A stretch of 64,000 nt of DNA from a virus, in the IMG/VR virus record IMGVR_UViG_3300038428_000280, positions 1-64,000 of that record, one strand, 5' to 3'. The notes below the pieces were generated by a model. It saw nothing but the letters and a program-made list of their open reading frames with translations. It was not told the DNA's origin and did not search any database. Position 1 is the stretch's first letter; each line of letters opens with the position of its first letter. A program made the position numbers and the translations under genes. Below are positions 16,114-49,992 of this stretch, piece after piece.

Positions 16114-17220
16114 TCATCGGTTGACACCACTCAAAAAACGTTTTTTGGTTTCTTCAAAGGTCAGATGAGCCGCATCGTCGTAATACACCGATTTTGCAAT
16201 CAAACGATTTTCAGATTGCAGTTTTGTAAACCGTTTGATGGCTGACACCTTCCACTGTTCTATTTGTTTTTCCAAGTCTTTTAATTCCTGAATGGGTTTC
16301 AATTGGGATTCTTCTATTTTACATTGTAGAAAATCATTGCTGTTTTCATATAGGGAAACATAATGAACACCACGTTGAATTCCGTGATAAATCGTTTTAT
16401 AATCTATTCCCAAATCTTTGCAAATATTTCTCATCAACTCATCTTTATAACGATTGGGATTTACATCATCATCTTTTTTCACAGGTGCCGGATACTTAAT
16501 TTTCCAATCATTTAACACAATTTCCGGCAATTCTATGGGTACTTTCCCTGACGTTGTTCCTAAATTCTGCCAAAATTTTATACCGGTGTATTGGCAAAAA
16601 GACCCATAAAGACTTGTGGTGGTCACTCCAACAACCATGTCACCATATTTTTCCTTCCATGCGTTTCTAAAATAATCTGTTACCACAATTCTAGCCAATA
16701 ACTTGCCACCCAAACAATTATAACCGAATGGTTGAAGAGGCACAAGAACTTGTGCGTTCATCAAATTATTTATTCGTTTATTCTTGTATTTGTGGTCTTT
16801 GGACCACCCGATGAAATTATCTCTAGCCGATAAAGCACCAATGTCTCCAGCAATGGTTATCATACCAAGAAACTTACCATCATTACTATTTTCTACAAGA
16901 AATGACAATTTTCTGCCGGGGTAGTTATTTTGAAGTGCAGAAGATGTAAACAACATGAAATTTTTGTATATGCGATACAATTCTTCATCAGAATCGTTTA
17001 CAGGCAAGATTCTTATCTTTAGATTTTTTATTTCCTCTATGGTTTTTGGATTGGAAATCTTGTATTTGGAACGCAGAAAAGGCATGATTTCATTTATATG
17101 CCTCTGAATTTCATACCATTTGATTTTTAAAGTATATTCTTCCAGCGATAGGGATTTTAATTCTTGAATCGTCGCTAGTGTTTTATCTTCTTGTGGCTCT
17201 ATAAAATCAAACAAATTCAT
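16114..17220 (-). CDS. DUF4338 (DruA-like) protein
   Basis: 368 residues. The core block PGRKLSFLVENSNDGKFLGM, DNFIGWSKDHKY, LVPLQPFGYNCLGGKLLARI and YGSFCQYTGIKFWQNLGTTSG follows the DUF4338 pattern (GRkLSylve, RDxwIGWs, GxxllaR, Y.gt.W..lG.T.G) found in DruA of the Druantia defence system and in phage proteins of unknown role. The C-terminal 130 residues are helical and Lys-rich, possibly for nucleic-acid binding. A defence, anti-defence or modification role is inference. Single-gene unit with its own promoter. Confidence 0.7.
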   Translation of the reverse strand: MNLFDFIEPQEDKTLATIQELKSLSLEEYTLKIKWYEIQRHINEIMPFLRSKYKISNPKTIEEIKNLKIRILPVNDSDEELYRIYKNFMLFTSSALQNNYPGRKLSFLVENSNDGKFLGMITIAGDIGALSARDNFIGWSKDHKYKNKRINNLMNAQVLVPLQPFGYNCLGGKLLARIVVTDYFRNAWKEKYGDMVVGVTTTSLYGSFCQYTGIKFWQNLGTTSGKVPIELPEIVLNDWKIKYPAPVKKDDDVNPNRYKDELMRNICKDLGIDYKTIYHGIQRGVHYVSLYENSNDFLQCKIEESQLKPIQELKDLEKQIEQWKVSAIKRFTKLQSENRLIAKSVYYDDAAHLTFEETKKRFLSGVNR

Positions 17221-19954: not shown

Positions 19955-20028
19955 GCAGATGTGGTGTAGTGGCAGCCCACGACATTGCCAATGTTGAAGT
20001 GAGGGTTCGATTCCCTTCATCTGCTCCA
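19955..20028 (+). tRNA. tRNA-Gly (anticodon GCC)
   Basis: 74 nt with a 7-bp acceptor GCAGATG/CATCTGC and encoded CCA. The anticodon stem CGACA/TGTTG encloses loop TTGCCAA; the T loop is TTCGATT-type. First gene of the array. Confidence 0.92.
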
Positions 20029-20030
20029 AC

Positions 20031-20106
20031 GCGATATTGGTGTTTAACGGCAGCATGTGACCCCTCCAAGGTCGGGGTGAGAGTTCGAATCTCTCATATC
20101 GCTCCA
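20031..20106 (+). tRNA. tRNA-Gly (anticodon TCC)
   Basis: 76 nt, acceptor GCGATAT/ATATCGC, encoded CCA. Anticodon stem TGACC/GGTCG with loop CCTCCAA. Two bases after the first glycine tRNA, so processed from a shared transcript. Together they read GGC/GGU and GGA/GGG. Confidence 0.92.
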
Positions 20107-20116
20107 ATTTTAAACG

Positions 20117-20392
20117 ATGAATATTATACCTTCATGTCAATGTTTATCAGATTTCATGAAGGCTCAGATGGATGTGGTCTCTAAGCATTTAGATGAACAC
20201 AAATATCTTAGAAATATTCCCGGTAGGGAAGAGGCGTTGGCATCGTTTATAAACGATTATGGATGGTTAATAAGGGAATTGTATTGCACAAGAATTTGTG
20301 AAAAAAGGTCTGAATGTGAAATTGCACTACAATTAAGCAGTAGTGGAGACCTGTTACGAAATCATCAAAAAAATGATAAAATGCCCGGTTAG
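20117..20392 (+). CDS. Small HLxEH-family protein inside the tRNA array (91 aa)
   Basis: Begins MNIIPSCQCLSDFMKAQMD and contains SKHLDEHKYLRN and YGWLIRELYCTRICEK. The same HLxEHxxL ... LRELY ... C pattern occurs in the 66-residue gene at 20992-21192, so the two look like paralogues. The stop codon TAG lies within the next tRNA gene (10-base overlap), so the message and that tRNA cannot both be matured from one transcript. Function unknown. Confidence 0.6.
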   Translation: MNIIPSCQCLSDFMKAQMDVVSKHLDEHKYLRNIPGREEALASFINDYGWLIRELYCTRICEKRSECEIALQLSSSGDLLRNHQKNDKMPG

Positions 20393-20475
20393 CACAGCGG
20401 CAAGTGCGGTGGTCTTATACACCATAAACCCTAGATTTGGGTAAGACGGGGGTTCGAGTCCCTCATCGGGCACCA
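20383..20475 (+). tRNA. tRNA with anticodon TAT (Ile?) and an unusually long variable arm
   Basis: 93 nt. Acceptor GCCCGGT/ATCGGGC, D stem GCAC/GTGC, anticodon stem GTGGT/ACCAT with loop CTTATAC (anticodon TAT, reads AUA), T stem GGGGG/CCCTC, encoded CCA. The variable region is 22 nt and folds on itself (ACCC/GGGT), which is class II architecture, normally Leu, Ser or bacterial Tyr. The amino-acid identity is therefore uncertain. Confidence 0.65.
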
Positions 20476-20507
20476 AAAATTTTATGGATGGTGAATAAAA
20501 AATTTAT

Positions 20508-20586
20508 CGCGGGGTAGAGAAGCCCGGCCTATCTTGTCATGCTCATAACGTGAAGAACGTTGGTTCGAATCCAACTCCCGCAACCA
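20508..20586 (+). tRNA. Initiator-type tRNA-fMet (CAT) with eroded anticodon stem
   Basis: 79 nt, very like bacterial initiator tRNA: 5' CGCGGGG with an unpaired C1 opposite A72, loop CTCATAA, ending CCCGCAACCA. The three consecutive G-C pairs at the base of the anticodon stem in normal initiators are missing (here TCATG/CGTGA), and the D loop has two extra bases. Confidence 0.88.
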
Positions 20587-20598
20587 ATTTTGGGTGAA

Positions 20599-20701
20599 AC
20601 GCAAAGCGACTCACAAGGGGACGCAAAGCGACCTCGGAGTATTTTTAATAATACTTACTCTCAATCGAACACGTCATTTGGCCAATGAACTTTGATTGAG
20701 T
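20599..20701. other. Structured spacer between tRNA genes
   Basis: Contains a 12-base direct repeat ACGCAAAGCGAC (20599-20610, 20621-20632), a hairpin AGTATT/AATACT (20638-20655), and a larger fold with an outer stem CTCAATC/GATTGAG (20660-20666/20694-20700) enclosing TCATT/AATGA. No open frame is evident. It could be a processing signal or a small RNA. Confidence 0.5.
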
Positions 20702-20704
20702 TAT

Positions 20705-20789
20705 GCTACAGTGGCGGAACTGGCAGACGCGCTAGACTCAAAATCTAGTGGAGAAATCCGTGTGGGTTCGACTCCCACCTGTAGCACCA
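20705..20789 (+). tRNA. tRNA-Leu (anticodon CAA)
   Basis: 85 nt, class II. Acceptor GCTACAG/CTGTAGC, discriminator A, encoded CCA. Anticodon stem CTAGA/TCTAG with loop CTCAAAA (reads UUG). Long variable arm typical of leucine tRNAs. Confidence 0.93.
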
Positions 20790-20802
20790 ATTTTGTCGTT
20801 GA

Positions 20803-20897
20803 TATTGGACACGTCCCGTGAAACATCGGGCCCCGCTGTAGGGGAGAAAAGTTGGCCACGACTAAGTGCTGCAGCATGATAGAGCCGAGTTCCAATA
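20803..20897 (+). ncRNA. Candidate structured RNA between two leucine tRNAs
   Basis: A 95-nt stretch closed by TATTGGA (20803-20809) pairing with TCCAATA (20891-20897). Inside are hairpins CCCG/CGGG (20815-20830) and CCCC/GGGG (20831-20844) placed end to end, an A-rich strand, and a GCTGCAGC palindrome. It is GC-richer than its surroundings and has no tRNA cloverleaf. No known RNA family recognised; strand assumed from the array. Confidence 0.45.
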
Positions 20898-20902
20898 CAA
20901 AA

Positions 20903-20987
20903 GCCACCGTGGCGGAAGTGGAAGACGCGACAGACTTAAAATCTGTTTCCTTCGGGAGTGGGGGTTCGATTCCCTCCGGTGGCACCA
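20903..20987 (+). tRNA. tRNA-Leu (anticodon TAA)
   Basis: 85 nt, class II. Acceptor GCCACCG/CGGTGGC, discriminator A, encoded CCA. Anticodon stem ACAGA/TCTGT with loop CTTAAAA (reads UUA), a codon much used in this AT-rich genome. Confidence 0.93.
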
Positions 20988-22268: not shown

Positions 22269-22859
22269 ATGAAACTCAACTGTAACAGTTTTTTTGACGG
22301 AGAATTTGAATATCTCAATCTAAATGAATTGTATCTAAAATATAGAAATCTTTTAACGGATACAAAAATTCCTTCGCAAATTCAATTTTTATTAAATCAA
22401 TTCCACAACAATACATTTGGTGGATATGCAGAAGATAGAAAGGATATTTGGAAAGGAACCTACTTGGATAAACATGGGAATTATATTCATTTGGGAGTTG
22501 ATATCAATGTCAGAGCAGGAACCAACATTCGATGCCCTTTTGATGCCAAAGTAATTGATATTTTTATTGATAGCGATACACAAATTGGTTGGGGCGGTAG
22601 AATAATTTTACAGCCAAGCGAATATTTACCATATTTGGTTTTAGCTCATATTGAACCGACATCTTTAGTCAATAAAAATTATTTTAAGAAAGGTGAAATT
22701 ATTGGTCAAGTTGGGACTTGGCCAGCCAATGGCAACACTTTTCAACATCTACATGTTCAACTTGTTAAAGATTTGGATATAAACAATTTTGACGGATATG
22801 GTTGTGTTGAAGATTTGTCAAACAATATTGACCCTTTCGAAATGGAGTTTAAAATATGA
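22269..22859 (+). CDS. M23-family metallopeptidase
   Basis: 196 residues. YIHLGVDINVRAGTNIRCPF holds the first zinc ligands (HxxxD) and QHLHVQLV the HxH pair, with the G-W-G-x-R-I strand between: the LytM/M23 fold, which cuts peptide bridges in peptidoglycan. No signal peptide, so it is either released with lysis proteins or carried on the virion. All catalytic positions are present. Confidence 0.88.
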   Translation: MKLNCNSFFDGEFEYLNLNELYLKYRNLLTDTKIPSQIQFLLNQFHNNTFGGYAEDRKDIWKGTYLDKHGNYIHLGVDINVRAGTNIRCPFDAKVIDIFIDSDTQIGWGGRIILQPSEYLPYLVLAHIEPTSLVNKNYFKKGEIIGQVGTWPANGNTFQHLHVQLVKDLDINNFDGYGCVEDLSNNIDPFEMEFKI

Positions 22860-23875
22860 CAAAATTAGCCACCCTAGAAAGAATTCATAGCATTCAACCC
22901 CACCCAAACAAGGAAGTGGAAAAACTTGAAATTGGCAAAGTAAAGGAATGGCCTGTCGTCATTCCAAAAGGCCAATTCAAGGATGGCGATCTTGTTGTTT
23001 TTATTCAAATTGATTCCATTTGCCCCAAAGAAAATCCCTACTTTGCCTTTCTTGAAAGACAAAAGTATAGAATTTGGAATGCTAAGTTTAAAGGAGCGCC
23101 TTCACAAGGTCTTGTGTGTCCTCTTTCTATTCTACCTAGAGGGGATTCATCCCTGAGAATAGAGGAAGGAGCAGATGTTACCGAACATCTTGGCATCACT
23201 AAATATGAAAAACCTCTTGATTTAAGTATTTGCGGCGATGCTAAAGGTGGATTTCCGACACACTTGATTCCTATTACCGATGAAGACAATTTACTCAATA
23301 ATCCTGAAACTCTTAATGAATTCATGGGAGAAGAATGTTATCTTACCGTAAAGGTTGACGGTTCTTCCATGACCATTATCCATGATAACGGTGAAGTTAG
23401 GGTTTGCAGTCGCAGATTGGAGCAAAAAGAAGGAACAGGATTTTGGAAGATTGCTGAACAATACGATTTGCCAAACAAACTTAAGGCTCAGATGGCGTTG
23501 AATATTGCCATTCAATCGGAAGCTTGTGGTGGAAAAATTCAGGGAAACCCATTGGGACTTTCCGAACCCTGTATGTTTGTCTTTAATGTCAAAGATATAA
23601 CTACAGGCAAGTGGTATGGTTGGGAAGAAATTAAATCCATTTGTTCATTGTTCAATATACCATCTGTGAGATTGGTTTGTGAACCTTTCATCTTTGATGA
23701 AACTTGGACCATTGCAAAACTTCAAGAAGAAGCAAATAAGGTGGTCTATGTGACTGCAAAAGGTGAAACAAAGAAAGGCGAAGGAGTGGTTCTTCGACCT
23801 ACTAAACCAAAATATTCAGCTATTCTTGGTAAACCACTGTCGGTTAAAATCTTAAATCAGGAGTATAAACAATGA
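22856..23875 (+). CDS. RNA ligase (Rnl2-related, DraRnl-like layout)
   Basis: 339 residues. An N-terminal OB-like domain (to about 120) precedes a nucleotidyltransferase core with motif I LTVKVDGSS (adenylated Lys166), motif III around EPCMFVFNVKD, motif IV GEGVVLRP, and motif V SVKILNQEY near the C-terminus. The N-terminal OB domain matches the Deinococcus-type ligase order. It would join RNA ends after ATP-dependent adenylation. It starts on the M23 stop (ATGA) and shares the operon with a cyclic-phosphate receiver and a polynucleotide kinase, making an RNA-repair set. Confidence 0.88.
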   Translation: MTKLATLERIHSIQPHPNKEVEKLEIGKVKEWPVVIPKGQFKDGDLVVFIQIDSICPKENPYFAFLERQKYRIWNAKFKGAPSQGLVCPLSILPRGDSSLRIEEGADVTEHLGITKYEKPLDLSICGDAKGGFPTHLIPITDEDNLLNNPETLNEFMGEECYLTVKVDGSSMTIIHDNGEVRVCSRRLEQKEGTGFWKIAEQYDLPNKLKAQMALNIAIQSEACGGKIQGNPLGLSEPCMFVFNVKDITTGKWYGWEEIKSICSLFNIPSVRLVCEPFIFDETWTIAKLQEEANKVVYVTAKGETKKGEGVVLRPTKPKYSAILGKPLSVKILNQEYKQ

Positions 23876-24405
23876 TTTCTCCATTCTTTTTTCATAGCAT
23901 GATTGATGAAGATTATGCTTGGGAACTTCAATTCTTTCAAAAATATAGGGATTTGAAGGATGGTCTCGACATATTCAACATTGAAATGAATTGGGATAAA
24001 TATATGGCTGACCATAATCCAAAATTCATTTTCAGTCTGAAATTGATTAACATCATTATTTTCGAGTTCATCATTTACAATATATGGCATACCGATAACT
24101 CCCGTTCACCTTACTTTGGAATGGATGATGTTGATGCACCCAATTACGAAAAAGACAATCATCCATCAACATCGGATGTTACCGTGATATTTCATTCGAG
24201 AAGAAATTTTTATCATGGGCAACCTATTTATTGGTATGAATTCAGGACTAAAATAGATGGTTTTGACTTCACGGATTTAATACCCCAACACTTTCTTAAC
24301 GTTCCATTTACAGTATTCTATGAATACGGTGGAACACACGAAGAAGCGTTAAAAGAATTGACAAGCGAAGGTTTTACGAATATAATAGAAGGCAATGAGC
24401 TATAA
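23872..24405 (+). CDS. Hypothetical protein in the RNA-repair operon (177 aa)
   Basis: Not recognised. Mixed alpha/beta, with one hydrophobic stretch (SLKLINIIIFEFIIYNIW, about residues 44-63) that could be a core strand or a membrane segment, and an acidic middle (GMDDVDAPNYEKD). It overlaps the ligase stop (ATGA) and the next start by 11 bases. Its placement between repair enzymes suggests a linked role. Confidence 0.6.
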   Translation: MISPFFFHSMIDEDYAWELQFFQKYRDLKDGLDIFNIEMNWDKYMADHNPKFIFSLKLINIIIFEFIIYNIWHTDNSRSPYFGMDDVDAPNYEKDNHPSTSDVTVIFHSRRNFYHGQPIYWYEFRTKIDGFDFTDLIPQHFLNVPFTVFYEYGGTHEEALKELTSEGFTNIIEGNEL

Positions 24406-24745
24406 TTTATTTCTTGATGACAACCGCGACCCAAACAAGTTTCTTAACGATACAAAAACTTGGGTGATTGCACGTAATTATAATCAATTTGTAGATATAA
24501 TTACGAAACAGGGTTTACCTGATTTGATTTCATTTGACCATGATTTGTGTGATGTTGACCAAGGAAAGGTGGAGGATTTCAAGGAAAAAACAGGGTATGA
24601 TTGTGCCAAGTGGTTGATTGAATATTGCATGAAAACAAATCAATCGTTACCCAAATGGCAAATTCATACATTTAATCCAGCAGGCATGATAAATATTTAC
24701 GATATTTTATCTACATATAACAATAAGGAAGAGGTTTGTGAATGA
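24395..24745 (+). CDS. Cyclic-phosphate-processing receiver-like protein
   Basis: 116 residues with a receiver-like fold: NLFLDDNRDP (acidic pocket, residues 4-13), PDLISFDHDLCDVD, and YDCAKWLIEYCM. This matches the family named cyclic-phosphate processing receiver domain, proposed from gene context to act with RNA-repair enzymes. In this operon it sits between an RNA ligase and a kinase that lacks the phosphatase half of T4 Pnkp, so it may open or remove 2',3'-cyclic phosphates (inference). Confidence 0.75.
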   Translation: MSYNLFLDDNRDPNKFLNDTKTWVIARNYNQFVDIITKQGLPDLISFDHDLCDVDQGKVEDFKEKTGYDCAKWLIEYCMKTNQSLPKWQIHTFNPAGMINIYDILSTYNNKEEVCE

Positions 24746-25220
24746 TATGGACGATTTAATAAAAAATATTGGTGATAAAAAGAAAGCTTTGATTATTCTT
24801 GTGGGTCCTCCTGCAAGTGGTAAATCAACTTGGGGTAAGAAATTTGCTTTGGATAATGGTGTGGTCTATGTTTCAACCGATGAAATCAGAAAAGAAATTG
24901 GCTCGGGAGAAGGCGACCAAACCGTGTCTGCTGTGGCTTTCGGTATTGCTCGTCGCAGAGTTTCAGCCGCTTTGAGTGCAGGTAAAAATGTAATGATTGA
25001 TGCCACCAACGTCAACAGAAAATCTCGTAAGGATTGGGTTAATTTGGGAAAAGGTCATTCATCGTATATTATTGCTGTCGCTTTTGAGGTTCCAAAAGCC
25101 GAACTTTTGAAAAGAGATGCGAAGCGTGAACGTCAAGTTGGACCGGAAGTTATTGACAGATTTATAAACAAATATGCCCGTCCAGCAGCAGACGAAGTGA
25201 ACAAGGTTATCATTAAATAA
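24738..25220 (+). CDS. Polynucleotide 5'-kinase-type P-loop kinase
   Basis: 160 residues. Walker A GPPASGKS (23-30), then STDEIRKEIG (catalytic Asp 48), MIDATNVNRKSR (87-98), and the lid region RERQVGPEVIDRF. This is the kinase domain of the T4 Pnkp group without the C-terminal HAD phosphatase domain. It would phosphorylate 5'-OH ends made by anticodon nucleases so that the ligase can seal them. Overlaps the previous gene by 8 bases. Confidence 0.85.
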   Translation: MNDMDDLIKNIGDKKKALIILVGPPASGKSTWGKKFALDNGVVYVSTDEIRKEIGSGEGDQTVSAVAFGIARRRVSAALSAGKNVMIDATNVNRKSRKDWVNLGKGHSSYIIAVAFEVPKAELLKRDAKRERQVGPEVIDRFINKYARPAADEVNKVIIK

Positions 25221-25225
25221 AAATT

Positions 25226-25558
25226 ATGACAAGCAAGAAAATTATCACTGAAATTTCAAAATTGGATGGATGGAAATGGCACAAAGGGAGTGAATTACGT
25301 TTTGGTCCACCAATTAAAGGTGAAAAAATTATAAAGCGAGGATGGCATCTAGGTAAAAGAGTAAGAGAAACTTTACCAGCCTATCTTACTGATAGAAATG
25401 CTGTTATAATGGTAATTAATAAACAAAATAAGATGGTTCAATTTGCAATTGACAATTTAATTCACGATAAACTTTATCCAAATCAGCCGACAATTTGTGC
25501 AACCGCACACCAACTTTGTGAAGCTCTTTTAAGGGTATTGGATAAATGGAAAGAATAA
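25226..25558 (+). CDS. Phage ABA-sandwich domain protein
   Basis: 110 residues. LDGWKWHK, LPAYLTDRNAVIMVI and the C-terminal CATAHQLCEALLRVLDKWKE match the phage ABA-sandwich family (DxLpxYLxdlNAm ... AtA.qRaeAfLr.l.kW). Function unknown. The next gene is a diverged second copy. Confidence 0.8.
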   Translation: MTSKKIITEISKLDGWKWHKGSELRFGPPIKGEKIIKRGWHLGKRVRETLPAYLTDRNAVIMVINKQNKMVQFAIDNLIHDKLYPNQPTICATAHQLCEALLRVLDKWKE

Positions 25559-25562
25559 AATT

Positions 25563-26006
25563 ATGAAAGAAATAGACATTCTTACTGAAATTGCAGCTTT
25601 AGATGGTGGAAAATGGCTTTATGCTCCAAAAGCCGAAACACCACACCGTTTTTGGTTGGATGATGATGCTTACGTTTCTCATGCCCAAGATTTTATTGAA
25701 TGGGATGGAGTAAAAGATATTCCCATCGGATGGGATTATTGCCATTTCAAAGATTACACAAAATCTTATGATGCAATTTTACCTGTAATTAAAAAGCTAA
25801 AGGATGAAAATCAATTTTCAAGCAATCCGGCCCATTATCCTACTTGGATGTTTTCTTCACATCTTCTTAAAATTTTAGGTCTTAAATTGTGGAACAATGG
25901 AGAACCGTTGAAGTCACCATGTAATCTTTGTCAAATAATTTTATCAGCAACTCCGCTTCAACTTTGTGAAGCTGTTTTAAGAGCGGTGAATAAGTGGAAG
26001 GAATAA
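25563..26006 (+). CDS. Phage ABA-sandwich domain protein, second copy
   Basis: 147 residues. It shares LDGGKW, YTKSYDAILPVI and LSATPLQLCEAVLRAVNKWKE with the gene just upstream, so the two arose by tandem duplication; this copy carries an insertion of about 40 residues in the middle. Four-base spacing to the upstream copy. Confidence 0.75.
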   Translation: MKEIDILTEIAALDGGKWLYAPKAETPHRFWLDDDAYVSHAQDFIEWDGVKDIPIGWDYCHFKDYTKSYDAILPVIKKLKDENQFSSNPAHYPTWMFSSHLLKILGLKLWNNGEPLKSPCNLCQIILSATPLQLCEAVLRAVNKWKE

Positions 26007-26813: not shown

Positions 26814-26815
26814 TT

Positions 26816-27013
26816 ATGGATGATTGTAATAAATATTTTATTTCTTGGAATGAGTTTTTGAAGGATGCTAAAGTTTGTAATGACCTTCAATTAACCCAAG
26901 AAGAGATAAATGAATTAATGGAATTCCATGAAAAATCAATTCAACAACGTGATAGAGATTGGTCATTGATATCGAATTGGGTTGTTGGAGCAGAGCCTAT
27001 TGGTGAGGCTTGA
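26816..27013 (+). CDS. Small hypothetical protein (65 aa)
   Basis: Starts MDDCNKYFISWNEFLKDAK, two bases after the previous stop, and ends WVVGAEPIGEA. Helical, acidic, unassigned. Its last codons overlap the -35 box of the next promoter. Confidence 0.6.
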   Translation: MDDCNKYFISWNEFLKDAKVCNDLQLTQEEINELMEFHEKSIQQRDRDWSLISNWVVGAEPIGEA

Positions 27014-27037
27014 CTTTTATAATTAGTGGAGTATCAT
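27010..27037 (+). promoter_or_regulatory. Promoter for the 27.0-28.3 kb unit
   Basis: TTGACT (27010-27015), 16-bp spacer, TATCAT (27032-27037), 6 bases before the ATG at 27044. Confidence 0.6.
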
Positions 27038-27043
27038 CATAAA

Positions 27044-27250
27044 ATGAATGATGACGAGCCTAAATATCGCTGTGCTTGGTGTATAAGAGACACCCATACC
27101 AATCCATGCGAATTTTGTGGAAGCGATACTGTTCATGTCAAAGGAACGGTACACAATTGCCATTGGTCCATGTACACAATTAGCACGGTCAAATGTAAAT
27201 TGTGTGACAAAATCATCAGTTACGAAGATTATCTGAACGGGAAATTTTAA
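27044..27250 (+). CDS. Zinc-ribbon protein (68 aa)
   Basis: The ATG at 27044 follows the promoter and is preferred over an in-frame GTG at 27026. It has three CxxC knuckles: RCAWCIRD, PCEFCGSD and KCKLCDKI, with a His-containing loop between, so one or two zinc sites. Function unknown. Confidence 0.65.
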   Translation: MNDDEPKYRCAWCIRDTHTNPCEFCGSDTVHVKGTVHNCHWSMYTISTVKCKLCDKIISYEDYLNGKF

Positions 27251-27252
27251 AT

Positions 27253-27630
27253 ATGAAAACAACATTGGAGAAATGGGCAGATAAAATAAGGAAATTACGG
27301 AAAAATCAACCCAAAGTGACTCTGAAAGAAGCTCAGGCACAAGCAGACCGGGTTATGAAAGTTGTTAGAGAAGCCAAAGGTATTAAACGGCTGGAACCAA
27401 GGGTTTATCATAAGACACCTTATGTTTTGGATGAAGACATAAAGAAACTGCATGGGGCCGCTTGGTTTAAAAAATTCGTCAAAGCTGCCGGCCCCGGCAA
27501 TACAATGATGATTATTCCAGCCAATGACCCGTCGCATAAAAAATCAAGGCAACAAATAGGTATGTATATGTGGGATTATGAAAGATTTGCTGATGTGGTT
27601 GATTTTAACAGACCCACATATTTCGATTAA
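27253..27630 (+). CDS. Hypothetical protein (125 aa)
   Basis: Basic helical N-terminus (KWADKIRKLRKNQPK, AQAQADRVMKVVREAKG) and a mixed C-terminus containing LHGAAWFKKFVKAAGPGNTM. Two bases after the zinc-ribbon gene. A nucleic-acid-binding role is possible from charge only. Confidence 0.6.
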   Translation: MKTTLEKWADKIRKLRKNQPKVTLKEAQAQADRVMKVVREAKGIKRLEPRVYHKTPYVLDEDIKKLHGAAWFKKFVKAAGPGNTMMIIPANDPSHKKSRQQIGMYMWDYERFADVVDFNRPTYFD

Positions 27631-27681
27631 AAAATAACAACAAGTAGTAAAACGCATATGAGATAGAAGAACAATAACGAT

Positions 27682-46992: not shown

Positions 46993-49681
46993 GCTCCAAA
47001 ATCAAAAAACTGACTTGCTGTTTTCATCGCTGGATTTGGAAATGTCCACTTGAACACATCATAAATTCCATCGTTTTTGCCGTTTGCAAATTTTGATTTT
47101 AATTCTTGCTCGAACATCTTTTTTCTGTCCACCAACTGATTTACAAGGTCTATTATTTCATCAGGGTCGTTTCCATCACCTTTTAATGCCAAAGCATCAA
47201 GACCGTATTGGTTGGTTTGTAAATATACCCATTTGATTTTTTGGCCGTGATGAATGGGTTCAAAATCTCTTTCCAATCCCAATTTAATCAACAAATCATT
47301 ATACGCTAACGCGGCTTTGGCTTGAGCGGGAGTGGCCAATTCAAAATGAAATGGCAACCGACTGTCGGGGTTATAATTTTTGGTTCCGTCCTGACTTATA
47401 AATTTTACGGAAGTGTTCTTTGCTATATCAAGAACATCAAAAGTCTTCATATCTTCCCTAAATTTGAGAATCATGTCATCCAATTCTTTTTTGGGAACAT
47501 CGGTCAATAATTTTCTCAAAAAAGAATCCATAAACTTGCGAAATGAAGCTGGAAATGATGAACGCACCACGTCAATGCCCTTTACTTCCAACCTTGGTTG
47601 TTTCAATAAGGCACCTTCTTCATGAATAATCCACTGTGCATATCGTTTCTTAGCCAGCCAAAACGACGATTTACTGATAACTTCCTGTTTAGCATCAAAC
47701 GTGTGTTTATTCAAATTGAAAAAACGTTTAGCCATGACGTTATAGAACTGATTCACATAGCTCTGAACTTCGGTGGTGACGCTCATGATGGCTTTTGTCA
47801 TGTCATCCTCATTATTCAAATCTATGTTTGGAAATCTCTTCTTGATAATGGGAATTGAATCAACAAAACACGAATCGGTATCACTATAAATCACCCAATC
47901 ACCATCTTCAGCGGTGTCCAAAGCTTGTTTGTAATAAACATTTATTGCTTTTGCGGTAGTCTTGATGATATCCACACCGGTTGTAGTGACCGCTTCAGCA
48001 TTATCCACATCATAGAAACGAAACACAGGCAATCCCAAAACTCCATAAAATGAATTAAGCAAGATTTTCCAAACCGCTTGTCGTTGATTGTAGAAATTAT
48101 ATTGCTCCATGTCACCTGCCTTTTTGAATTCGGCAGCCTTCTTTCTCATGTCTTTGCGTTGTTTAAACCACAAATCCAACAATATTGGTATCACACCCCT
48201 TTTATCCTGCCTATAAAGCACCCCATTGGAAGATAACGAATAATTACATTTTTCAATCCATTCTCCAAATTCTTGTGGTGTATAATCAGCCTGACCCACC
48301 CGATAATTTGTCAATTCACCCTTTACGTGGGATTCAACCGAATAATTTTCCAGCTTACCCACCTTTGTTTCAGGTGATATATTCAAAGAAATGATGATAT
48401 TGGGATACATGGAAGTTAAATCAAGGTCAAAGACCCAATTATACCTTCCCGGCACGGGTTCTTTTACAAAAGCACCCGAAAAGCCTTCTTCTCCTTCTTC
48501 CAATCTGTCTTCATAATCCTGTCTTCCCTGTGAAGGTTTGTTTGGCGCAATCAAACCACCATTGCGTTTCAAATAAATCAGTGTGGCGCCATCGAGATAT
48601 CTTGATGACATATGAAAGTTATCGTAAGGAACATGGCCGACATGGCAAATGTTTCTAGCCAAATCAATAAATTTAAGTTTTCTGTCCAACGCTACAACAA
48701 TTTTAACGTCGGTCATGTTATATTCCAAAAACTTATTGATGTCTGCTTTATACAGGTCATTTAAATTACCGTGATACTGAATTTTACCTATACCTACCGT
48801 CTTTTGACCTATCGGACCAAGAGCATAAGTGGGTTCCATTTTTCCTGAGAATTTTTTGTATAACAAAATGTAATCAAGAACGGATATGCCACCCACGGTT
48901 AATTTTTTACTAAAACCGTTTACGTAGGCTGCACCGATGGGTGACAAGCACTTGGCCGCTTTTGCACCAAGACAATTTTTCAAACGAAGATAAAGATAAG
49001 GCATGTCAAAATAATCAACATTCCAACCTGTAACGATTGTGAACGCACACTCTTGCCATTTATCCATGAAACTTATCAAAAGATTGTCTTCATCGTCAAA
49101 CGACCTTGTAACAATTTTTACCTTCTGTCTTTCTTCATCAGTGGTAATCTTCCAATCCTTTGGCAACCAAGGTTCAACTTCCTCTTCCTTGGAATCTATT
49201 TTATGGTCTTTATCAAGAATAAACACATAACAGGTCTTGGTCAAATAATCAAATAATGAAATGCCTGTAATTTCCTTGTTGGCCGTTTCCATGTTGGGAA
49301 ACCCACCTTCGGTGGACACTTCAATATCAATAACTCCGACCTTATGTCCTTTGGATGGTTCGTCCGAATCCACATAGGTATCCATAAGAACTCTCGTTTC
49401 GGCTGGAACATCGGATTCAAACAATTCGGGGTCATTATCATTATAGTTGAATACTTTTACAAGTTCGTCGCCGTAAAGTGAACGTTCCGGTCCACCTACC
49501 TTTTTCTTGTATGCATATTTTGGATAATCAAATGAGGTATAACCTTTTTCGTCATCCCAAAGATGAACAACCCAATCCTTTTTATTTATGTATATATTCT
49601 GGTAAATAAAATCCCATCCTTCTTTCTTTTCTTGTGTTTCTTGTTTTTCTTTTTATCAACCACCAATATTCTTTTTTTCAT
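46989..49681 (-). CDS. Family B DNA polymerase (T4 gp43-like), frameshift near the 5' end
   Basis: Exonuclease motifs IDIEVS, WNVDYFDMPYL and YNMTDVKIV; polymerase motifs LDLTSMYPNII (A), KILLNSFYGVLG (B), YSDTDSCFV (C) and KKRYAQW: a complete replicative enzyme. The main frame is open from 49652 but has no ATG until well inside the conserved N-terminal region (EGWDFIYQNIYI, VHLWDDEKGY, SLYGDEL). The only good start, ATG 49681, overlaps the upstream stop as ATGA and encodes MKKRILVVDKK in another frame. A -1 shift in the A5-G-A5 tract at 49644-49654 joins them into about 897 residues, the size of T4 gp43 (898). Confidence 0.9.
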
Positions 49682-49992
49682 AATTCATTCAAATATTTTA
49701 CAACTTCTTCGCCCAATTCTGCTAAATCTTTTCCTTCGTGAAAATATTCATCAAACAAAATAACAAAACCCTGTTCATTGAATTGTTTATATGATGGTAA
49801 ATCAACATGTGCTGAATTGTCATGAAAATCATCTTCATCACCTAATTCAAAATATACACTTCCGTTTTTTCTGAATTGACAGATAAATTGCCACTGTCCC
49901 AATTCTTGTTTTTTTGGAAATTTCCAAACAAATTCAATATATTCAGAATGAAAACTCTGATTGGATAAAAATTGGTTTTGAGGTATGTTCAT
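49678..49992 (-). CDS. Hypothetical protein (104 aa)
   Basis: Starts MNIPQNQFLSNQSFHSEYIE. Contains FVWKFPKKQELGQWQFICQF and an acidic C-terminal half (VILFDEYFHEGKDLAELGEE). Its stop overlaps the polymerase start codon (ATGA), so polymerase translation is coupled to it. Unassigned. Confidence 0.62.
   Translation of the reverse strand: MNIPQNQFLSNQSFHSEYIEFVWKFPKKQELGQWQFICQFRKNGSVYFELGDEDDFHDNSAHVDLPSYKQFNEQGFVILFDEYFHEGKDLAELGEEVVKYLNEL

Follow-up and report, generated by a model that had tools for sequence, protein, structure and literature searches.

The domain cREC was named in 2021 by Iyer and colleagues, who proposed that it processes cyclic phosphates and noted its linkage, in phages as well as cells, to RNA ligases of different families (PMC7824862), and a 2022 survey described neighbourhoods of the phage V5 type in which a ligase and cREC occur with a nucleotide kinase and occasionally a calcineurin-like phosphoesterase (PMC9503650). 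Both the opening of cyclic phosphates by cREC and its association with RNA ligases have been in print, as predictions, since 2021-2022. Two bacterial RNA repair complexes are also known, and their phosphatases come from different superfamilies (PMC4411300). Here we compare with these systems a cassette of four overlapping genes, encoding an RNA ligase, a 177-aa protein, cREC and a polynucleotide kinase, in a 64,000-nucleotide stretch of DNA (the window) that forms part of the 85,160-bp viral record IMGVR_UViG_3300038428_000280, itself apparently a fragment. The window has a GC content of 36.7% and also encodes a DNA polymerase and a clamp loader. We consider it very probable that the four genes belong to an RNA end-healing and sealing cassette, in which cREC is most likely a step added to the usual phosphatase and not its substitute.

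The four cassette genes and their relatives

The cassette comprises four open reading frames (ORFs):

22856-23875, + strand: RNA ligase, 339 aa
23872-24405, + strand: 177-aa protein, with an N-module at about residues 1-85 and a C-module at about residues 101-177
24395-24745, + strand: cREC, 116 aa (PF20274, phrog_1479)
24738-25220, + strand: polynucleotide kinase, 160 aa (AAA_33, phrog_505)

Successive ORFs overlap by 4, 11 and 8 bases, and because all four proteins are kept in relatives at 42-77% identity, these are genuine genes and not chance ORFs. The ORF list and this conservation thus bear out the four overlapping genes, and their placement, that an initial sequence-only reading had given.

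In profile searches the first protein matched PF09414 (5e-22) and, at its N-terminus, the OB domain PF21189 (5e-15), as that reading had it, and the ligase motifs K166-x-DG, EG at 309-310 and K331 are conserved. Its match to TIGR02306 (RNA_lig_DRB0094; 8e-44) reached 149.9 bits, just below the 151.15-bit cut-off; among proteins of solved structure, the best match is Naegleria gruberi Rnl (profile E 8e-50). Judged by sequence, the protein is predicted to be an ATP-dependent, Rnl5-like ligase made up of an OB domain and a nucleotidyltransferase; a ligase scan of cellular genomes gave no match at the sensitivity used.

The kinase matches AAA_33 (1e-26) and the polynucleotide kinase family phrog_505 (3e-25), and carries the P-loop GPPASGKST, D48 in STDEIR and R126/R130. 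Its match to TIGR04075 (4e-24) covers residues 15-148 only, and the 160-aa protein, with its AAA_33 match and no phosphatase domain, is indeed a kinase without the HAD phosphatase domain, as first described. The closest solved structure is the kinase domain of Clostridium thermocellum Pnkp (4gp6, 4e-17; T4, 1e-10), and we predict a stand-alone 5'-polynucleotide kinase of the bacterial (Clostridium-type) Pnkp kind. The T4 Pnkp plus Rnl1 frame in which the locus had originally been set does not fit, since the kinase is nearer to Clostridium thermocellum Pnkp and the ligase appears Rnl5-like, not Rnl1. A T4-type reading of the kinase was ruled out by its nearest relative and its size.

The receiver-like gene is confirmed as cREC by its matches to PF20274 (1.3e-23, 83.9 bits against a cut-off of 27) and phrog_1479 (6e-28). 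Its AlphaFold2 model (pLDDT 88) shows a four-stranded receiver-like domain, and a Foldseek search of the PDB placed receiver domains closest with a probability of 1.00, but with an E of about 1e-3 and a TM of about 0.55. Residues D8, D9 and D48 occupy the positions of the receiver acidic triad and S/T92 that of the receiver threonine/serine, and the model is without the fifth strand, which bears the conserved lysine in signalling receivers. Over 47 cREC sequences H49 (45/47) and H91 (47/47) are conserved, as are D8, D9, D48 and S/T92, and the logic of the fold suggests that the two histidines would lie on adjacent strands along an edge of the sheet. We give cREC roughly an even chance of opening cyclic phosphates on RNA.

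Relatives of the cassette were sought by scanning viral contigs with single-protein and alignment queries; a first cREC scan with a single-sequence query gave no match, and an alignment query was required. Ten further lineages were recovered, near-identical contigs being counted once:

L004 (= L008, L009): ligase, C-module of the 177-aa protein, cREC, kinase, metallophosphoesterase
L005: all four cassette genes and a metallophosphoesterase
L006: all four; a metallophosphoesterase some 7.5 kb upstream, not adjacent, and elsewhere a 2H protein
L002: all, with the 177-aa protein as two genes and putative homing endonuclease genes between them, and a metallophosphoesterase
L007: ligase, C-module, kinase and metallophosphoesterase, without cREC; a putative endonuclease gene at the place of cREC
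L092: ligase, cREC, kinase, metallophosphoesterase
L094: cREC and kinase, no Rnl5 ligase near; a HAD_SAK phosphatase elsewhere
L022 and L023 (= L025, L063): ligase, cREC, kinase, M23 peptidase, metallophosphoesterase
L039: cREC, metallophosphoesterase, ligase, kinase

Ligase, cREC and kinase lie in the same order and on the same strand in eight lineages (the window, L005, L004, L006, L002, L092, L022 and L023), so that the proposed co-occurrence of four genes holds for these three, whereas the 177-aa protein is absent from several lineages. A nucleotide search found no cassette in named phages, and DLP_6 and P19 carry cREC without the cassette ligase or kinase in the stretch examined. Over the left 29.6 kb of the window's record, gene order is collinear with G002, the record of L004, at about 42-88% protein identity.

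The 177-aa protein has no match in Pfam, PHROGs or NCBIfam and no relative in named phages. Its AlphaFold2 model has a mean pLDDT of 71, with low confidence in the N-module, and Foldseek returned no significant match, E. coli YciH (E 0.44) being at most a lead. Each module can stand alone (L002, L007 and L130), one is fused to cysteine-rich repeats in L105, and the protein was not found in L092, L022 or L023. Being missing in several lineages, split in one and present as the C-module only in others, it makes a weak candidate for the fourth component once proposed; it is a dispensable two-module accessory.

The putative homing endonuclease genes lie amid cassette genes at L002 3212-8111 and L007 7007-9385, and the Rnl5 ligase gene of L022 (550-2720) contains an interruption of about 1.1 kb that encodes a GIY-YIG-like protein and is either an intron or an insertion; Rfam gave no match for the group I intron suspected there.

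Phosphatases alongside cREC

A metallophosphoesterase gene lies near the cassette in 8 of the 10 relatives, seven of them with cREC and one (L007) without it, and its metal-site motifs DxH, GDxxD, GNHD and GHT are conserved. The window's kinase and the relatives' metallophosphoesterase match consecutive stretches (2-141 and 173-310) of phrog_8238, a 737-aa phage RNA-ligase family that appears to combine kinase, phosphoesterase and ligase. An opened 2',3'-cyclic phosphate is still a phosphomonoester and ATP-dependent ligases of such a kind require a 3'-OH, so a phosphatase would still be required before the ligase can act; and because a metallophosphoesterase stands beside cREC in most relatives, cREC usually works alongside a phosphatase. 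The claim that the receiver-like protein takes the place of the Pnkp phosphatase is therefore not borne out: seven relatives have both genes, one has the metallophosphoesterase without cREC, and the syntenic relative G002 has in addition a kinase-HAD fusion. This 312-aa protein is encoded beside a probable nicotinate phosphoribosyltransferase gene (L215, G002 47793-49891), at a position equivalent to sequence about 29 kb past the left end of the window's record.

The order of genes in L088, L092, L095 and L098, together with the collinearity of G002, defines the corresponding slot in the window:

26814-27681: slot between the conserved d182 and HNH genes, in which relatives carry a metallophosphoesterase and/or a ClpP-like gene

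Both the metallophosphoesterase and the ClpP-like gene are absent from this slot, tblastn and PF00149 were negative in the window or its record, and motif and family searches of the window's record for HAD, metallophosphoesterase, 2H and KptA proteins found nothing convincing. The metallophosphoesterase of the window has thus either been lost or been replaced by something unrecognised or unsequenced.

Proposed RNA repair and rival explanations

A tRNA array lies about 2 kb upstream of the cassette:

19955-20987, + strand: six tRNA genes, Gly(gcc), Gly(tcc), Ile(tat), Met(cat), Leu(caa) and Leu(taa) (ARAGORN, Rfam RF00005)

A like array in the same order is found upstream of the ligase in L095, L098, L103 and L092, and Rfam detected nothing but tRNAs around the window's array at gathering score. 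The tRNA with anticodon UAU (20383-20475, + strand) resembles class II tRNAs in its variable region of about 22 nt, and is also 94-95 nt long in L095, L098 and L103.

The linkage between cREC and ligases extends beyond the cassette. A PF09414 ligase is present in 18 of 50 cREC-carrying records, and in 8 of these 18 it lies within 2.5 kb of cREC against 1.7 expected from a simulation of random placement, a figure that serves as a guide only since the 50 records were chosen with cassette cREC sequences. Among bacterial loci, mostly from Chryseobacterium, cREC is followed on the same strand by an Rnl2-type ligase within 834 bp in 60 of 80, which is independent support for the cREC-ligase linkage. 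At one Chryseobacterium chromosomal locus (L133, 7980-11834) cREC is followed by two ligases, one Rnl2-type and one RLIG1-like, and further on by an MBL-fold protein and a metallophosphoesterase. An R2K-clade ATP-grasp protein is encoded at 9427-10260 (- strand) of the window, and an R2K protein is found near cREC in L133 too.

The cassette probably mends cut RNA in infection, its substrate being most likely tRNA. In the mechanism that we propose, a metal-independent host ribonuclease, probably an anticodon nuclease, would leave 2',3'-cyclic phosphate and 5'-OH ends; the 5' end would be phosphorylated by the stand-alone Pnkp-type kinase, cREC would convert the cyclic phosphate to a monoester, and a separately encoded phosphatase would strip this phosphate, in most relatives the nearby metallophosphoesterase and in the syntenic relative G002 possibly also the kinase-HAD protein, before the Rnl5-type ligase seals the 3'-OH to the 5'-phosphate. 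Both what cREC does chemically in the cassette and which enzyme serves as 3' phosphatase in the window's phage are inferred. Taken as a whole, the healing and sealing of RNA ends by kinase, cREC, a separate phosphatase and an Rnl5-type ligase is the explanation towards which we lean.

Several points weigh against this scheme. Rnl5 ligases favour nicked duplexes and are a poorer fit to a cut anticodon loop. No metallophosphoesterase, HAD_SAK, PNK3P, 2H or KptA match was found in the window's 85-kb record, and the match of the relatives' metallophosphoesterase to phrog_8238 is weak (3e-5), with generic phosphatase families matching too. The lineages with short-range linkage are partly interrelated, so the simulation overstates their independence, and 32 of the 50 cREC records have no PF09414 ligase at all, though most of these records are fragments. 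Finally, cREC has been called "experimentally uncharacterized" (PMC9503650).

The rival explanations differ mainly in what they ask of cREC. If it substituted for the phosphatase, it would both open the cyclic phosphate and remove the phosphomonoester, alone making the 3' end ligatable. The lack of a recognisable phosphatase in the 85-kb record or the local synteny slot would fit, and D8, D9, D48, H49 and H91 could, in the model, form a plausible hydrolase site; yet seven lineages keep cREC and a metallophosphoesterase at one locus and one keeps the metallophosphoesterase without cREC, other candidates exist in the records of L006 (metallophosphoesterases and 2H) and L094 (HAD_SAK), and the kinase-HAD protein of G002 lies outside the stretch that the window's record covers, all of which makes such a substitution distinctly unlikely. 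For the window's phage in particular we hold a role of cREC as sole 3' healer to be very doubtful, and highly improbable the version in which cREC carries out both reactions and the phage came to rely on it alone after loss of the metallophosphoesterase; if true, it would be a case of a receiver fold turned RNA repair enzyme. A receiver-related fold with four strands and, in the model, no lysine-bearing fifth would also suit a non-catalytic regulator or scaffold of the ligase or kinase, which we regard as improbable because H49 and H91 are atypical for signalling receivers and conserved with D8 and D48, suggesting acid-base chemistry, and because the locus has no histidine kinase.

Two further rivals concern the substrate. 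cREC may act on small molecules, such as ADP-ribose cyclic phosphates or cyclic nucleotide signals, and share the operon with the ligase and kinase because both would counter one and the same response of the host. It is linked to Nudix, sirtuin and WYL contexts (PMC7824862, PMC9503650), several named phages carry it under a feature annotated as nudix hydrolase, and the 32 records without a PF09414 match point the same way; against this stand the close overlap of cREC with the ligase and kinase genes of these phages, its independent pairing with Rnl2 in Chryseobacterium, and the lack of a Nudix, sirtuin or KptA gene in the cassette and of a KptA match in any of the 18 records (0/18), so that we think this reading rather unlikely. 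The genes could, alternatively, have nothing to do with tRNA damage and mend nicks in RNA or DNA generally, in keeping with the nick-sealing Rnl5-type ligases of Deinococcus and Naegleria. We judge this unlikely too, as the tRNA array beside the cassette is conserved and a kinase with 3'-end processing implies breaks with 5'-OH and blocked 3' ends.

Neighbouring genes and comparison with known systems

Immediately upstream of the ligase lies a gene that overlaps its start by 4 bases:

22269-22859, + strand: M23 peptidase gene (PF01551, 6e-9)

As it overlaps the ligase in the same way, overlap by itself does not mark the boundary of the four-gene unit. In L022/L023 the M23 gene comes after the kinase, in L103/L104 it is found upstream of the ligase, and it is probably a syntenic neighbour outside the repair machinery. 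Downstream of the kinase, 25226-26006 holds two adjacent paralogues (110 and 147 aa) that both end in an LCEA(L/V)LR-like sequence and have no Pfam match. The window further encodes, at 13484-15100 (- strand), a 538-aa protein with DUF2828 and DUF7788 that matches phrog_850 ('RNA-binding protein', 8e-142) and may be a further protein near the cassette that handles RNA, and, at 16114-17220 (- strand), a phage-borne match to DruA (PF14236, 2e-26) of the Druantia defence family.

The cassette gives cREC, whose processing of cyclic phosphates has been a prediction since 2021, a compact setting, and suggests a Pnkp-like pathway split into separate genes. Lineages with the metallophosphoesterase with and without cREC, and with cREC with and without the metallophosphoesterase, amount to a natural experiment that points to candidate substrates and partners, as does the short chromosomal cREC-Rnl2 arrangement in culturable Chryseobacterium.

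Compared with tRNA repair by T4 Pnkp and Rnl1, the logic is the same, with both ends healed and then sealed, but T4 Pnkp is a kinase fused to a HAD phosphatase, whereas the kinase of the window stands alone and its ligase belongs to a different family. The Clostridium-type Pnkp/Hen1 system provides the closest solved relative of the kinase domain and has a metallophosphoesterase-type phosphatase, as in the window's relatives. Kinase, metallophosphoesterase and ligase are, however, one protein in bacterial Pnkp and separate genes in these relatives, where the ligase is apparently Rnl5-like; Pfam and NCBIfam searches for the Hen1 methyltransferase, made on the four cassette proteins only, found none. 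In the Capnocytophaga Pnkp1-Rnl-Hen1 system, which mends ribotoxin-cut tRNA in vitro, the ligase is apart from the kinase-phosphatase, as here, but its phosphatase, which is of the T4 Pnkp type, forms one protein with the kinase, and the system has Hen1 and no cREC (PMC4411300). The Rnl5 ligases of Deinococcus (DRB0094) and Naegleria (NgrRnl) share domain order and motifs with the window's ligase, which differs from them in being phage-borne and linked to cREC and a kinase.

The nearest match is with the published cREC-RNA ligase neighbourhoods of the Escherichia phage V5 type, where a ligase and a nucleotide kinase lie beside cREC, in some cases along with a calcineurin-like phosphoesterase (PMC7824862, PMC9503650), and the proposed role, clearing 2',3'-cyclic ends, is the same. 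In contrast to these, the ligase of the window is predicted to be Rnl5-like and not T4-like, no sirtuin or MazG gene was seen in the cassette, and the phosphoesterase, a frequent neighbour in the window's relatives, is missing in the window. The cassette is thus a variant of the predicted toolkit, whose ligase is apparently of the Rnl5 type and whose Pnkp-type kinase stands alone; new here are the frequent metallophosphoesterase partner, the corrected T4 frame, the finding that the 177-aa protein is modular, the tRNA array linked to the cassette and a tally of cREC-Rnl2 neighbourhoods in bacteria.

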